This document shows positions 6,391-64,000 of a DNA stretch of 64,000 nucleotides, in pieces; positions within the stretch are counted from its first letter, which is position 1, and each line of letters begins with the position of its first letter. Below the pieces are notes generated by a model. It searched no databases, was not told where the DNA came from, and worked only from the letters and a program-made list of their open reading frames with translations. A program made the translations under genes and the position numbers. This DNA is from Onthophagus taurus (taxonomy: Eukaryota; Arthropoda; Insecta; Coleoptera; Scarabaeidae), in contig NC_091976.1 of assembly GCF_036711975.1 (NCBI RefSeq), positions 34,224,001 through 34,288,000 on the forward strand. The letters are read 5' to 3'.

Positions 6391-8652
6391 CATTTCCCCC
6401 TACTGCTATTTCGTAGTTCCTCTGGAAGTATATCTTTCGAATCTCAGTGCCTTCCAATCTGTTACACTTCATTATCTTTATTTTAATATGTAAAGTGCCG
6501 CGTAAGTGATACGAAGTGTTCCCAACTGGTTAACTTTTATCTTGATGGGTTACGCAGAACCATCGTGGCCCTAATGACAGTACAAAGCCACAATCGTGGT
6601 GGGTATTAATCAACCTGAATAATTGAAGCCTTTGTATCAACCCTTAATCTCATTCATTTCAAAGTTTCGAATTCATGTCCAATGTGAAAGAAGACACGAA
6701 GCAAAAAGTCTTTAGTGTCGTGTAAGTGTGGGAAAAAGTATGTATGTAGGTCAACGATACGAACAGCCAAAGTCGCATCAGCATTTTGAAAATTTTTGCA
6801 TCTTATATCTATATAACTTATTTTGAAGTATAACTATTAAGATTGAACTTTTAACATTAATCGTGTAGATTTATTGCAGCTTTGCAACAACCACATTGTT
6901 TGTCAGACGCCGTTTCATGTCGATGTAACCTCGCAGCGATGACGTAGAGTAATTGTAAACCCGGCCTTGAAAAACCGTAATCACGATTACACGGTCGACA
7001 CGACGCCTTCATTGTCGTAGGTCTTTTTTAAAATTACCATGCAAATATTTACGCACATACAAGATATTGAAATTTTTTCCGAAAACGCCATTTCATAAAT
7101 CATCTTAACCTTATTTATAGCAATTAAGAGATGTTTTTTAAGTCGTTTAGTTTACGCAATGAATATACGCTACGTATATATCCGGTGTGTCCTAAATACA
7201 TTTGCGATTCGTTATTTTTACAAGACCATGTAGGGAAGTGTGGCTCTAAACCGACGTGGGACGTTCTTCGTCGGAAAGGTAGCGCGACAGGTGTTCCAAT
7301 AGAATTAATTTTCTAAGAAAGTTGGTCTGTTTCAAATTGTCCGTTGAACTCTGGGGTTTGGGGGGACAAAAAAAAAGGCCGAGAACGAGAGTAGTTTCAA
7401 GTTCGCCGTTCGTGTAACGATGACGCCATTATCCTTCGCTTTCGGAAACCGTTTCGGCGCTACCGCGAAAGAGAAAACTGGTTTCGAAAACCTTGGCAAT
7501 GAACCCGCGCGGTCGTCCGTTGCTGTACCGTTTACTTTTGGTGAACTTAACCCAATTGTCGCGTTGCGGAGCCGGTGTCGACGACTTTATTCTTTATTCG
7601 CGATCGATTTCAGCCGCCAACCAAGCTTCATTAAAGTTGCATAAAAAGCTAACGTTCCAATTTCGCGCGAAAAAACGAAAATGCTCTTCACACCGTCTAT
7701 TTTAAACAATTTATCGACTTAATAGTTTTAACGGCCCGCTATTTTGTAACAAGTTCGCGCCGCGTGTAAATAAACATCGGGGTTTCTTCTCAAAAACACC
7801 AGGACCAGACGAGCGAAGTTTTGGAACCGTTCCAGCTTCAAAACTATCGTTAACTTCCCGTCCCAGTTTTCCGATTATCCCTATACACACACATTCGTAA
7901 ATCACCAGCCTCGGACGTCGCATGAAAACAAACTCGACCGAACTTGTTTGTGTTTCAAAGATGCTTCGATGGATCTCAATTATGCAATATACCATTTAAA
8001 AACACCTCTTCAAGGTTTTGTTATTTATTGTATCGAGTAAACTCGGGAAAGTGAATTTAAAAAATTTCAAATAGAGCGTTCTTTTTAAAGGGGTTTTTTT
8101 AATCAGTATTAACAGGTAGTTGGTCTTCGTTCCGGCGAGTAATTGAATGCGATGGTAATTATTACGTCACATGGTGCGTGAAAACGACTCTTCGGGACGG
8201 CGCATCCATTTGTGGATGAGAGTGTACCGCCGTCGTTTTTAGCCTCGAATGTACCCCACCGGTCTCGGATCAATAACCCCCCCGTATACGATGGTCTCTC
8301 TATACACTCTCCGTGTATATACAGGATAATGCACTAGAACGCGTAGAAAACTGCTGATGGGGGCTCATAGATGCGGGAGAATAATCGCGTGTCGTCGTTG
8401 TTTTCCAGACGACGATGTCGTAAAAAATGGGGATCAAACGGAACCAGACGAAAATTATTAGGAGACAGACGCGACGAAGGGATAATCTAATTCTTCAACC
8501 TCCTCCGGTTATGATGGTTTTGGTGATAATTAAGGGTTGTACGTCTGTTTGTTTAGGGTTTAATATCCGAAGTCCCTTTAAGGGTTCGTGATCTTAAGGG
8601 TGCTTTTTTCTTTCTACATTATCACGTTGATGTAACGATTAATAAACTAAAA
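6391..8652. other. Unique-looking intergenic sequence, no supported gene
   Basis: No repeat structure and no convincing gene. A moderately GC-rich patch at about 7380-7700 and 7850-8300 contains short overlapping reading frames on both strands, which is what elevated GC alone would give. None shows a domain, signal peptide or splice-supported extension. Confidence 0.4.
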
Positions 8653-58294: not shown

Positions 58295-59694
58295 TTAAAC
58301 ATAATTCCCATCAACCAAATGCTTAAAAAATCCGGCTACTTTTTTGCGATTATTCACATTACTCATTGGTTTTATAATCCAAACATTATCCAAAGTAGTT
58401 ACTTCCTACAAAAAAAAATTAAATTAAATTTCAATATCAAAAAAAAATCATTACTTGAATCTCATCAATATCGGCAATCTCTTCAGCGGCTGACATAATA
58501 ATAGCTTCAGTTCCCATAAGAAAAGTGAACATTCCAATTTTTTTCATTGCATCCTCAACTATATCGACGTTTATAATCCTGGGATTTGATCCCAATTCAT
58601 TTAAATATTCCGAAACGGAATTCGAATATATCTTTATTAATTCATCCCAATTTTTATCACGAATCACCGGATCGACGCAAATATACAAGAAGAAAGTTAA
58701 ATCTGTAACAACAGGGGCGCATCGTGTTAATTGATAATCGATGATTTTTACATCAAATTGATTGGTTTCGGTGGTTTTAACCAAAAAATTAGGGGCCCAA
58801 CAATCACCGTGGGTGACTCCACATAAAACAGTATGGTTTTTACATATTTTGCAACATTCTTTATAAATATCTCGCTTGATCAATTCCTCAAATTTATCTA
58901 AATATTCTTTTGAAAGCTCCTTTTCAATTGAATCTCTTAAAACAGGAAGAAGTTTATTCATCACCGGTGTGTACCAAGATCTAAATTTTTCATCAAAATA
59001 AGTTTCTTGTAAAGTTGAAATGATTTTTTTAAACTCATCAGGTTTTTGATCATTTAAAGCTAGTGAGATGGCATGAAATTTCCCGAAAGTTCGAATAATT
59101 TCGATGGTTTGCTCAAAATTTAAACTGGTGTTTCTTGGTAATCCACCATATTTTGAATAACACAAATCTGTTAATGCAATAAAATCGTTTTTTCCATCCG
59201 TAAATGCTGAAAGGCACCTAAAAAGGGAAAAGTATTTAAATGCGAAATAAATGAATTTATGAACATACTCTGGAACAATATCTAAAGGATTTTGAACATT
59301 TTTCGATTTTTGGAATGCATCTAAACATGGCCAAACTTTATTGTAGAATAGAATTTCGTTTTCAAAGAAGTCAACTGAACGGAATGTTTCTTTTCGAGCT
59401 AAATTGCTTGGAAATGATTTTACGATGATTGGGATTGTTTCAGTTTCTTTGTCAGATCTAAAAACAAAAATGGATTAATTATATTGATTTAAACTTTATA
59501 AGATCTTACCCAGCTTCACATATTTCAATGGAAAATCTGGTCACAAGACTTAAATAAGATTCTCCTTTTGTTGTGGGAGCCCCAAAAGAGATGTTTTTAA
59601 CAATTGGATTTGTGAATTTACTCTTTTTGTTAACTATGTTCGAAATAACGTTCGAATTGAATTTTTCTGATACAGTTTTAGTTAAAATATCCAT
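58295..59694 (-). CDS. CHK/EcKinase-like protein (415 aa), complete gene
   Basis: Four exons: 59694-59510, 59457-59269, 59217-58455 and 58405-58295; GT-AG throughout, 1248 bases, frame intact. It starts MDILTKTVSEKFNSNV and ends KHLVDGNYV. N-lobe motifs include ISFGAPTTKGESYLSLVTRF (ATP-loop-like) and IPIIVKSFPS (lysine). C-lobe catalytic motifs are the Brenner-type GVTHGDCWAPNFLVK (about residue 260) and the metal-binding KIIDYQLTRCAP. The family (Pfam EcKinase/CHK, DUF227-like) is related to choline kinases and expanded in insects; some members phosphorylate ecdysteroids at the 22-hydroxyl, and most substrates are unknown. Its own substrate cannot be read from sequence. It is head-to-tail with two truncated copies. 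Confidence 0.93.
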
Positions 59695-60217
59695 TTTAGT
59701 GTAATTTTCTTTGTTTTTAAGGAGTTAAGTTAACACATTTTAGAGTTAAGTGCCCCCAATTCAGTAAAACTTTTCTCTTTAAGTACTTTATATTATAATT
59801 ATACGATTATATAAAGTAAATATTACGTTTGCAATAAACATTTAAGTAAAATGGAATTCAAGGTGTTTTATTTTTAATTTTTGTTATGAAAAAATAAATT
59901 CACAATTAAATATTTAATTATACGATAAAATAGAAAGATAATTATTTAAAATAAAAAATAAACAAGAATTGTTTATTTTATAAAATAATTTTATAATAAA
60001 TTCTTTTAATAAAGTATTGATACGTCAAATATAAACCTAACCTCACATATTTTTTTATCTCTGACCAGTATTGCCAGATTTGAACATTATACCACAGAAA
60101 AATGAATTAATTGATTATAAAATTTTTTTATAATAATTTAAAACAAATCTATTTTAAAATAAAATTTTATAATTTATAATTTAAGTACAGTTCCCTGTAA
60201 TATATAATATGTCAAAG

Positions 60218-60998
60218 TCAGTTTTGACATAAATAACTCTTTAAAACAGGAAGAAGTTTATTCATCACTGGTGTGTACCAAGATCTAAATTTTTCATCAA
60301 AATAAGTTTCTTGTAAAGTTGAAATGATTTTTTGAAACTCATCAGGTTTTTGATCATTTAAAGCTAGCGAGATGGCATGAAATTTCCCAAATGTTCGAAT
60401 AATTTCGATGGTTTGCTCAAAATTTAAACTGGTGTTTCTTGGTAATCCACCATATTTTGAATAACACAAATCTGTTAATGCAATAAAATCGTTTTTTCCA
60501 TCCGTAAATGCTGAAAGGCACCTAAAATGAGAAAAATATTTAAATGCGAAATAAATGAATTTATGAACATACTCTGGAACAATATCTAAAGGATTTTGAA
60601 CATTTTTCGATTTTTGGAATGCATCTAAACATGGCCAAACTTTATTGTAAAATAGAATTTCGTTTTCAAAGAAGTCAACTGAACGGAATGTTTCTTTTCG
60701 AGCTAAATTGCTTGGAAATGATTTTACGATAATTGGGATTGTTTCAGTTTCTTTGTCAGATCTAAAAACAAAAATGGATTAATTATATTGATTTAAACTT
60801 TATAAGATCTTACCCAGCTTCACATATTTCAATGGAAAATCTGGTCACAAGACTTAAATAAGATTCTCCTTTTGTTGTGGGAGCCCCAAAAGAGATGTTT
60901 TTTACAATTGGATTTGTGAATTTACTCTTTTTGTTAACTATGTCTGTAATAACGTTCGAATTGAATTTTTCTGATACAGTTTTGGTTAAAATATCCAT
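60218..60998 (-). pseudogene. Truncated CHK-like copy B (5' half duplicate)
   Basis: Exons 60998-60814, 60761-60573 and 60521-60218 are offset exactly 1304 bp from the complete gene. Splice sites are preserved and the frame is open for 225 codons, ending VLKSYLCQN. It stops just after the residue corresponding to about 217, so the HGD and DYQ catalytic motifs are absent. The last six residues come from the duplicated upstream region, not from the gene. A catalytically dead N-lobe protein or a transcribed pseudogene is possible. Confidence 0.85.
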
Positions 60999-61521
60999 TT
61001 TAGTGTAATTTTCTTTGTTTTTAAGGAGTTAAGTTAACACGTTTTAGAGTTAAGTGCCCCCAATTCAGTAAAACTTTTCTCTTTAAGTACTTTATATTAT
61101 AATTACACGATTATATAAACTAAATATTACGTTTGCAATAAACATTTAAGTAAAATGGAATTCAAGGTGTTTTATTTTTAATTTTTGTTATAAAAAAATA
61201 AATTTACAATTAAATATTTAATTATAAGATAAAATGGAAAGATAATTATTTAAAATGAAAAATAAACAAGAATTGTTTATTTTATAAAATAATTTTATAA
61301 TAAATTCTTTTAATAAAGTATTGATACGTCAAATATAAACCTAACCTCACATATTTTTTTATCTCTGACCAGTATTGCCAGATTTGAACATTATACCACA
61401 GAAAAATGAATTAATTGATTATAAAAAATTTTTATAATAATTTAAAACAAATCTATTTTAAAATAAAATTTTATAATTTATAATTTAAGTACAGTTCCCT
61501 GTAATATATAATATGTCAAAG

Positions 61522-62302
61522 TCAGTTTTGACATAAATAACTCCTTAAAACAAGAAGAAGTTTATTCATCACTGGTGTGTACCAAGATCTAAATTTTTCA
61601 TCAAAATAAGTTTCTTGTAAAGTTGAAATGATTTTTTGAAACTCATCAGGTTTTTGATCATTTAAAGCTAGTGAGATGGCATGAAATTTCCTGAAAGTTC
61701 GAATAATTTCGATGGTTTGCTCAAAATTTAAACTGGTGTTTCTTGGTAATCCACCATATTTTGAATAACACAAATCTGTTAATGCAATAAAATCGTTTTT
61801 TTCATCCGTAAATGCTGAAAGGCACCTAAAATGAGAAAAATATTTAAATGCGAAATAAATGAATTTATGAACATACTCTGGAACAATATCTAAAGGATTT
61901 TTAACATTTTTCGATTTTTGGAATGCATCTAAACATGGCCAAACTTTATTGTAAAATAGAATTTCGTTTTCAAAGAAGTCAACTGAACGGAATGTTTCTT
62001 TTCGAGCTAAATTGCTTGGAAATGATTTTACGATGATTGGGATTGTTTCAGTTTCTTTGTCAGATCTAAAAACAAAAATGGATTAATTATATTGATTTAA
62101 ACTTTATAACATCTTACCCAGCTTCACATATTTCAATGGAAAATCTGGTCACAAGACTTAAATAAGATTCTCCTTTTGTTGTGGGAGCCCCAAAAGAGAT
62201 GTTTTTAACAATTGGATTTGTGAATTTACTCTTTTTGTTAACTATGTCTGTAATAACGTTCGAATTGAATTTTTCTGATACAGTTTTGGTTAAAATATCC
62301 AT
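61522..62302 (-). pseudogene. Truncated CHK-like copy C (5' half duplicate)
   Basis: Exons 62302-62118, 62065-61877 and 61825-61522 are offset another 1304 bp, with the same breakpoint and the same chimeric end (LRSYLCQN). Few substitutions distinguish it from copy B (for example FRKFHAIS in place of FGKFHAIS, and TDEK in place of TDGK). Splice sites are intact. Same interpretation as copy B. Confidence 0.85.
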
Positions 62303-62931
62303 TTTAATGTAATTTTCTTTGTTTTTAAGGAGTTAAGTTAACACGTTTTAGAGTTAAGTGCCCCCAATTCAGTAGAACTTTTCTCTTTAAGTACTTTATA
62401 TTATAATTACACGATTATATAAAGTAAATATTACGTTTGCAATAAACATTTAAGTAAAATGGAATTCAAGGTGTTTTATTTTTAATTTTTGTTATGAAAA
62501 AATAAATTCACAATTAAATATTTAATTATAAGATAAAATAGAAAGATGATTATTTAAAATAAAAAATAAACAAGAATTGTTTATTTTATAAAATAATTTT
62601 ATAATAAATTCTTTTAATAAAGTATTGATACGTCAAATATAAACCTAACCTCACATATTTTTTTATCTCTGACTAGTATTGCCAGATTTGAACATTATAC
62701 CACAGAAAAATGAATTAATTGATTATAAAATTTTTTTATAATAATTTAAAACAAATCTATTTTAAAATAAAATTTTATAATTTATAATTTAAGTACAGTT
62801 CCCTGTAATATATAATATGTCAAAGTCAGTTTTGACATAAATAACTCCTAAGCCCATTTAGGTCCAAAATATGTCGTAATCGCCCCACGCAGCAAAGAAA
62901 AGACCGCACATGTCCAAGAATTGGGTAAATT

Positions 62932-63327
62932 ATGTTGATAAAAACGCCGAAACCGACTAAATACAAATTTGTTCGTAAAGCTGCTACAGTTTTGTTCGTC
63001 GCTGAAGGATTGTTTTTTGGTGGATGTTATTACGTTTATCATAAATTAAACACAGATAGGGGTAATTTCCTTTATTATTTGTATTTTAATAATAATTCTA
63101 AATAATTAATATTAAAAGATATCTAAATTAAAATCTTCAAATCATTAAAAAAAAAATTGTGTAGGCAACCAACATTACATGTATTTTTTGAAGATTTTAG
63201 ATTTTATATGCACAATAATTTCCCAAAGATTTTAAATTATTATTACTCTTTGGGGGAAAGAATTGGAGGGACTGGCGAGAGAATAAAAGAAATTGACCAA
63301 GCTTATTGGGCGAATAACTCAAATTAA
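62932..63327 (+). CDS. CEBPZOS-like small mitochondrial membrane protein (87 aa)
   Basis: Two exons: 62932-63061 (MLIKTPKPTKYKFVRKAATV, then LFVAEGLFFGGCYYVYHKL) and 63194-63327 (FRFYMHNNFPKILNYYYSLG to ANNSN). GT-AG intron, 264 bases, frame closed. The layout matches vertebrate CEBPZOS: basic N-terminus, one hydrophobic helix, then a DFR...M...FP.IL..YY motif and an I.E.D...W...S. tail. Known in the family: a small mitochondrial protein of unclear role. An upstream ATG at 62910 opens a 16-codon frame that ends before use, so 62932 is preferred. The stop TAA overlaps the start of the next gene by one base. The upstream region is shared with the divergent CHK-like copy C. Confidence 0.8.
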
Positions 63328-63632
63328 TGGCAAATAAACTCTTAAAATCGTTAATTTACTTCACGGGTTTTACAGGTTTGGGTTATTTACTATTAATTGC
63401 CACAAAACCCAGTGAAGCTTCAATCGAACAAATTAAAAAGGTTTTTGTTTTAACACCGTATCAATTAATCTAATAAAAAATTAATTTATTTAATTTATAG
63501 AAATATCCCAATCAACGAGAAACTTCTGCTGAATCATTGAAAAAAAGGGAGCAATTTGCTAAAGTTTTACAATCAGCCGCAGCAGATACACCAATTTATT
63601 TAAAAAATAAAGAACCATCTAAAGACGAATAA
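63327..63632 (+). CDS. UQCC3-like complex III assembly factor (81 aa)
   Basis: Exon 1, 63327-63440 (MANKLLKSLIYFTGFTGLGY, LLLIATKPSE...IKK), and exon 2, 63501-63632 (YPNQRETSAESLKKREQFAK to EPSKDE). The N-terminal membrane helix, the TP(G)/KP(S)E turn, the P..R.... motif and the LQ.AA segment resemble human UQCC3, an inner-membrane assembly factor for cytochrome bc1. Human UQCC3 is 93 residues. If the intron is retained, reading stops after 50 codons. The ATG shares its A with the TAA of the CEBPZOS-like gene, and the stop lies 13 bases before the TBCC ATG. The assignment rests on layout and short motifs. Confidence 0.7.
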
Positions 63633-63645
63633 TTATAATACAAAA

Positions 63646-64000
63646 ATGGAGTCGAATTTACTTCAAGAACGTTGCGATCGTAAAATAGAAATGTTAACAA
63701 AGCGTGAAAATGAGCGAAAACAAGATTTAGAGAAAGGAAACGCCTTAAAAAAATTAACAAACGCCGAAAATGAGCAATTAAGCTACTTCGAAAAGAGTTT
63801 TAATGAGAAAAAATCGAAAATCGAACAAGATCTTAATAAATCAAGTGAAATAAAAATCAAGGATTTGCCCGAACACTTTGATAAAATTTCTAAGGACATT
63901 TTGAGTCTACAAAAATATTTGGCGGGGTCAAATTTGTTTTTACGAGGATACGATATTAAAATTTATCAACAAATCGTTCAAAATTTAGGAAATCAATTCA
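63646..64000 (+). CDS. TBCC: Tubulin-specific chaperone C, N-terminal part (runs off window)
   Basis: ATG at 63646 opens a frame (MESNLLQERCDRKIEMLTKR) that continues to the window end, 118 codons. It is highly charged and helical, like the N-terminal spectrin-like domain of cofactor C. The stretch FDKISKDILSLQKYLAGSNL then FLRGYDIKIYQQ aligns with the human LQ.LI.DS.FFL..YDLR..Q segment. TBCC stimulates GTP hydrolysis by beta-tubulin in the cofactor complex that releases folded tubulin dimers; its catalytic C-terminal beta-helix (TBCC domain) would lie beyond 64000. It is 13 bases downstream of the UQCC3-like stop. Confidence 0.75.
   Translation, partial: MESNLLQERCDRKIEMLTKRENERKQDLEKGNALKKLTNAENEQLSYFEKSFNEKKSKIEQDLNKSSEIKIKDLPEHFDKISKDILSLQKYLAGSNLFLRGYDIKIYQQIVQNLGNQF

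Follow-up and report, generated by a model that had tools for sequence, protein, structure and literature searches.

Three genes packed stop to start in the beetle Onthophagus taurus: CEBPZOS-like, UQCC3 and TBCC on a likely shared transcript

Introduction

How are three genes expressed when the first stop codon overlaps the second start codon and only 13 bases separate the second stop codon from the third start codon? The question is raised by a locus of Onthophagus taurus near the end of a window of 64,000 nucleotides, window being used here for the whole stretch of DNA that was analyzed (contig C11, positions 34224001-34288000; the genome comprises 290.8 Mb in 33 contigs). UQCC3 is an assembly factor of respiratory complex III. 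TBCC, which in the fly is presumably CG31961, is a general tubulin-folding factor without an obvious connection to complex III. CEBPZOS appears among uncharacterised proteins, with a location in the intermembrane space (PMC5404111, PMC7066081), and PMC7066081 also gives a nucleoplasm location, marked (A).

Results

Gene order and exon structure

Splice pairs were enumerated for CEBPZOS and UQCC3 with length filters of 70 and 60 amino acids, and downstream sequence was added to read TBCC to its end. Positions in this added region (L002) are converted to window positions by adding 62800. The following features were found:

62932-63061, + strand: CEBPZOS-like coding exon 1 with start codon, basic N-terminus and predicted single membrane span (exon model, similarity to the human protein)
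63062-63193, + strand: CEBPZOS-like intron, 132 nt, GT-AG (splice pair chosen by the alignment to human CEBPZOS)
63194-63327, + strand: CEBPZOS-like coding exon 2, stop codon TAA at 63325-63327 (exon model, alignment)
63325-63329, + strand: TAATG, the CEBPZOS TAA and the UQCC3 ATG with one base in common (sequence, exon models)
63327-63440, + strand: UQCC3 coding exon 1 with membrane span (exon model, PF15141, alignment)
63441-63500, + strand: UQCC3 intron, 60 nt, GT-AG (exon model)
63501-63632, + strand: UQCC3 coding exon 2, stop codon TAA at 63630-63632 (exon model, PF15141)
63633-63645, + strand: spacer TTATAATACAAAA, 13 nt, from the UQCC3 stop to the TBCC ATG (sequence)
63646-64662 (L002:846-1862), + strand: TBCC coding sequence, intronless, 338 amino acids (ORF reading, Pfam, structure match)

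The order on the plus strand is CEBPZOS-like, UQCC3 and TBCC, and the spliced exon models give stop-to-start spacings of -1 and +13 nt. Both the TAATG overlap and the 13-base gap of the original prediction were thus recovered, and the two GT-AG introns were found in addition. The spliced ORFs comprise 87 codons for the CEBPZOS-like gene and 81 codons for UQCC3. Among the splice pairs that passed the length filters, the CEBPZOS frame is also open with two others and the UQCC3 frame with one more; 63062/63193 was chosen for CEBPZOS because it restores the stretch aligned to the human protein, and 63441/63500 was chosen for UQCC3 because its donor AAG/GT is nearer to the consensus. Like insect polycistronic loci, the locus combines two or more genuine ORFs on the same strand with very short gaps between them.

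Identity of the three proteins

All three gene names given in the original prediction were borne out. UQCC3 matched PF15141 over residues 4-72 (E=1e-8), a narrow pass with 35.4 bits against a cut-off of 33.6. Its alignment to a provisional sequence of human UQCC3 scored 73, a value that was reached by none of 2000 shuffles (mean 24.2, maximum 52). The CEBPZOS-like protein matched none of the Pfam families. Its alignment to a likewise provisional sequence of human CEBPZOS scored 124 (0 of 2000 shuffles; mean 24.9, maximum 50) and extended from residue 21 to the end, i.e., over most of the length. The predicted span of this protein comprises residues 17-35 with a mean hydropathy of 1.5, and in both small proteins the part before the single hydrophobic span is basic and has no acidic residue. 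A search against PDB sequences yielded nothing below E 1.1 for the CEBPZOS-like protein and nothing below E 0.17 for UQCC3.

TBCC was identified by a wide margin over the cut-off, with the N-terminal TBCC_N domain (PF16752, E=1.8e-26) and the C-terminal TBCC domain (PF07986, E=1e-41), and the best match among solved structures was the Tubulin-specific chaperone C (9m1m_C, E 1.3e-62). Positions 63646-64000 of its coding sequence lie within the window and 662 bases lie beyond the window end. Because these identities were found by Pfam matches and shuffle-tested alignments, a chance origin of the three reading frames is very unlikely.

Protein searches of the beetle's own genome, in which only the best candidates were scored, placed CEBPZOS and UQCC3 each at a single site, exon by exon. 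The Pfam profile of UQCC3 was silent in 14 control genomes and also in the own genome, despite the gene being there, probably because it is split by the intron; the silence in the control genomes is therefore uninformative. TBCC was found at one full-length place and as one broken partial copy, which covers residues 206-338 (the last 133) with 64% identity and six stops and lies about 3 kb downstream of the TBCC stop. None of the pattern matches to TBCC, 30 in genome contigs and 4 in viral contigs, was confirmed as a relative.

Neighbourhood of the locus

The 3' end of TBCC and part of the following sequence are present as a direct duplication of 492 bp with 98.8% identity (64458-64949 and 67859-68350), which is surrounded by repeats in inverted orientation. 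An ORF of 62 codons without a Pfam match lies tail-to-tail with TBCC on the minus strand, 65 bases past the TBCC stop (L002:1928-2116), and a second copy with identical translation is found at L002:5329-5517. On the other side, a tandem array on the minus strand of the window (58934-62849) is built of units of about 1304 bp that are about 98% identical and contain EcKL coding pieces; 83 bp separate the end of the array from the CEBPZOS ATG downstream. The EcKL match to PF02958 (ecdysteroid kinase-like) was tested on 61522-62082.

The ends of the contig were also inspected. The last 10 kb contain (TTGGG)n runs at positions 2-766 and 6980-7169 of that piece (L008), which stop short of the contig end, and the first 10 kb (L009) contain 251 copies of CCCAA, while runs of three TCAGG were absent from the end sequences examined. 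This suggests a TTGGG telomere motif, as is known from some scarabaeoid beetles (PMC8233369) and from the lacewing Nineta flava (PMC12564400), so that the motif by itself does not mark a beetle.

Start codons in the spliced RNA

The AUGs of the spliced RNA and their contexts, together with one ORF upstream of CEBPZOS, are as follows:

62910-62960, + strand: upstream ORF, 16 codons, C at -3, overlaps the CEBPZOS start in another frame (AUG survey of the spliced RNA)
62932: CEBPZOS start, A at -3, T at +4
63024: 6-codon ORF, T at -3, T at +4
63208: in frame with CEBPZOS, T at -3, C at +4
63327: UQCC3 start, T at -3, G at +4
63646: TBCC start, A at -3, G at +4

From the CEBPZOS start to the UQCC3 start there are thus two further AUGs, and from the UQCC3 start to the TBCC start there is none. 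The context of the UQCC3 start is poor owing to the T at -3, and that of the TBCC start is strong (ACAAAAATGG). CAAAATG has been described as the optimal context of the fly gene sloth2 (PMC9681215), and the TBCC start, AAAA-ATG-G, agrees with it at -3 to -1 and has an A in place of the C at -4. A strong TBCC start that follows weaker ones fits the pattern of leaky scanning, whereas the weak UQCC3 start agrees less well with it.

A depletion of AUGs would be a further signature of leaky scanning. Two internal ATGs were found in CEBPZOS and UQCC3, whereas first-order base composition would predict 7.9 (P 0.01). With two synonymous-codon controls the expectation fell to 2.6-2.7 (P 0.46 and 0.35). 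The scarcity was rejected as a signature because it is explained by the codon content.

The upstream ORF at 62910 would have a role only if the transcript begins upstream of it. Ribosomes engaged on it would bypass CEBPZOS, and the UQCC3 start, 235 nt further on, could serve them for restart.

RNA features around the TAATG overlap

RNA folding was analyzed in windows along the locus. The 100 nt upstream of the overlap (z 1.03) and the 100 nt across it (z 0.42) did not fold unusually compared to shuffles. One element stood out downstream of the overlap:

63359-63418, + strand: predicted RNA hairpin, the stem of which begins 32 nt after the UQCC3 ATG (folding windows)

The folding window with this hairpin had the lowest z value of 106 such windows (z -3.31, 0 of 200 shuffles). 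However, a folding window inside TBCC that lacks a stop-start junction reached z -3.1, and the hairpin fold was equalled or bettered by 88 of 1000 synonymous permutations and by 189 of 1000 synonymous draws. The hairpin is thus a weak candidate for a coupling element, as its folding does not go beyond what the codons impose. A UGGGA motif of the TURBS type, which pairs with helix 26 of the 18S rRNA, was also searched for, and the last 120 nt of CEBPZOS did not contain an exact TGGGA; the nearest sequences there were TGGGG at -77 and GGGAC at -60.

The distance from the CEBPZOS stop to the exon junction of UQCC3 further downstream is 113 nt. The decay of insect mRNAs may depart from the 55-nt rule of mammals. 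Under this mammalian rule, and taking into account that translation of a downstream ORF can be 'rescuing' (PMC3951408), the mRNA would be a target of decay unless UQCC3 is translated.

Discussion

This gene order is explained most economically by a shared transcript, which is likely and has precedents in insects. That CEBPZOS and UQCC3 are carried by one mRNA appears probable, and the balance tips slightly towards the presence of TBCC on it as well. As a whole, a tricistronic mRNA carrying CEBPZOS, UQCC3 and TBCC is the best explanation, which we hold with a modest preference. A single promoter upstream of CEBPZOS would give rise to a spliced mRNA with three separate ORFs, the first of which would be read by ordinary scanning. 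UQCC3 would be reached mainly by ribosomes that terminate on the UAA and restart at the adjoining AUG, and ribosomes leaking past the CEBPZOS start would add to its initiation. TBCC would be reached by leaky or resumed scanning, and a shorter TBCC transcript may exist in addition.

Our confidence in this division of routes between UQCC3 (restart after termination) and TBCC (leaky or resumed scanning) is low. Termination-reinitiation is favoured for UQCC3 because its weak start agrees less well with leaky scanning and its one-base overlap with the stop matches the UAAUG arrangement. On the other hand, an ORF of 55 codons was predicted to prevent reinitiation (PMC4705651), a length that is exceeded by the 87 codons of CEBPZOS as the first ORF. 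Leaky scanning to UQCC3 is opposed by the A at -3 of the CEBPZOS start, which should not be very leaky and is superior to the UQCC3 context at this position. In addition, the upstream ORF at 62910 overlaps the CEBPZOS start and speaks against the proposal.

Several other explanations have to be weighed. CEBPZOS and UQCC3 might share a dicistronic mRNA, and TBCC might have a separate promoter within the body of the UQCC3 gene, which is possible, if unlikely. It would agree with the A at -3 and the G at +4 of the TBCC start, with the position of this start as the fifth AUG of the spliced RNA when counting begins at CEBPZOS, and with the different role of TBCC outside complex III, but just 13 nt lie between the two ORFs. 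Between 62700 and 64000 the only match to the initiator motif TCAKTY was found at 62826, upstream of CEBPZOS, a result that carries little weight. The original prediction saw no room for separate promoters, but the coding exons upstream or the 132-nt intron might contain one. It is improbable that each ORF is exposed by a mature RNA of its own, through alternative splicing or promoters, e.g., by splicing from a donor at 62925 so that the CEBPZOS start is left out. This donor (TGG/GTAAAT) scores 4 of 7 against the consensus, the same as both used donors and a score reached by 5 of the 30 GT sites, and its joining to the acceptors at 63164, 63193, 63200 or 63228 would eliminate the CEBPZOS start, and no ORF before UQCC3 would then exceed 39 codons. 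However, the donor score is crude and two more unused sites tie with 62925. Moreover, all four acceptors keep upstream AUGs (a 2-codon ORF, then the MSKNW ORF, and the 39-codon ORF in three of the four), and TBCC would still be located downstream of UQCC3 on the same RNA.

That the feature is not real, one of the small ORFs being a chance frame or a decayed copy, is strongly disfavoured. The missing Pfam match of CEBPZOS, the location between the tandem EcKL array and repeats, and the broken TBCC copy nearby could be taken in its favour. They are opposed by the open spliced frames with GT-AG introns, the Pfam matches of UQCC3 and TBCC, the shuffle results for CEBPZOS and UQCC3 against the human sequences, and the lack of a second copy of either gene among the best candidates scored in the genome.

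If the mRNA is shared, the locus would be a natural tricistron that locks two mitochondrial microproteins together, and it would allow UAAUG restart to be studied in a cellular gene of an animal. The fixed CEBPZOS-UQCC3 pair would then coordinate the amounts of two microproteins of the inner membrane and intermembrane space, with TBCC probably being a passenger. The original prediction had called the three genes unrelated, which fits TBCC better and is doubtful for an intermembrane-space protein and a complex III assembly factor. We propose that CEBPZOS may work with UQCC3 in the biogenesis (assembly) of cytochrome b and complex III. It is a candidate biogenesis factor because a common mRNA suggests a common pathway, by analogy to sloth1/sloth2, and this would provide a concrete, testable hypothesis for an orphan microprotein. 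The functional proposal is drawn from the layout in one genome and presupposes that other insects share the adjacency. The most specific version, in which CEBPZOS is an unrecognised assembly factor of complex III (cytochrome b) that is kept at a set ratio to UQCC3 via UAAUG termination-reinitiation on one insect mRNA, is doubtful; if true, a cellular protein pair would use a coupling signal whose other known examples come mostly from viruses and retrotransposons.

Restart at UAAUG has been described for segment 7 of influenza B and for the silkworm retrotransposon SART1, and the pentanucleotide at the present locus is identical (PMC5972666). The known examples are viral and retrotransposon RNAs, whereas the present locus is a cellular gene pair without an exact UGGGA. 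In SART1 the restart needed RNA structure downstream of the overlap (PMC5972666), whereas the hairpin predicted here is not significant under codon control.

The locus fits the existing class of insect polycistronic loci, an arrangement that is uncommon but known. FlyBase lists 159 dicistronic pairs, seven tricistronic and two tetracistronic sets for Drosophila, and 2.5% of the fly protein-coding gene models have at least one polycistronic transcript (PMC4528330). Small proteins are over-represented, and loci with only polycistronic transcripts have stop-to-start spacings of -34 to +319 nt, a range that includes the present values of -1 and +13 nt (PMC4528330). In the text consulted from that survey no locus with CEBPZOS, UQCC3 or TBCC is named, and a fly counterpart is possible. 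Among the matches listed in literature searches that combined UQCC3, TBCC, CEBPZOS or C11orf83 with polycistronic or bicistronic, the arrangement was not described in titles or the beginnings of abstracts, and by the same measure the gene trio was absent from the matches listed for polycistronic genes in Tribolium, insect dicistronic genes, and CEBPZOS together with complex III. Leaky scanning is indicated also for the stoned and Snapin bicistrons of Drosophila (PMC11291117), and an insect tricistronic mRNA with context-dependent scanning is cited in PMC4705651. Conserved upstream ORFs of Drosophila occur preferentially in transcripts for mitochondrial proteins (PMC2276209).

In humans, the STREMI-SLC35A4 bicistron also has a microprotein of the mitochondrial inner membrane upstream of another ORF (PMC13303939). 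It is explained by the insertion of a retroposed coding sequence; for the intronless TBCC gene described here such an origin would be conjecture. A close likeness is found in sloth1/sloth2 of Drosophila (SMIM4/UQCC5 and BRAWNIN/UQCC6), two complex III microproteins that are translated from one transcript and, like the CEBPZOS and UQCC3 ORFs, encode small single-span mitochondrial proteins stop to start (PMC9681215). They belong to other gene families, are proposed to be paralogs, and are separated by a 5-nt gap that is passed by leaky scanning, as tested with reporters (PMC9681215), whereas the present pair has a spacing of -1 nt and is followed by a third ORF. If the mRNA is shared, CEBPZOS and UQCC3 would be a parallel to sloth1/sloth2.
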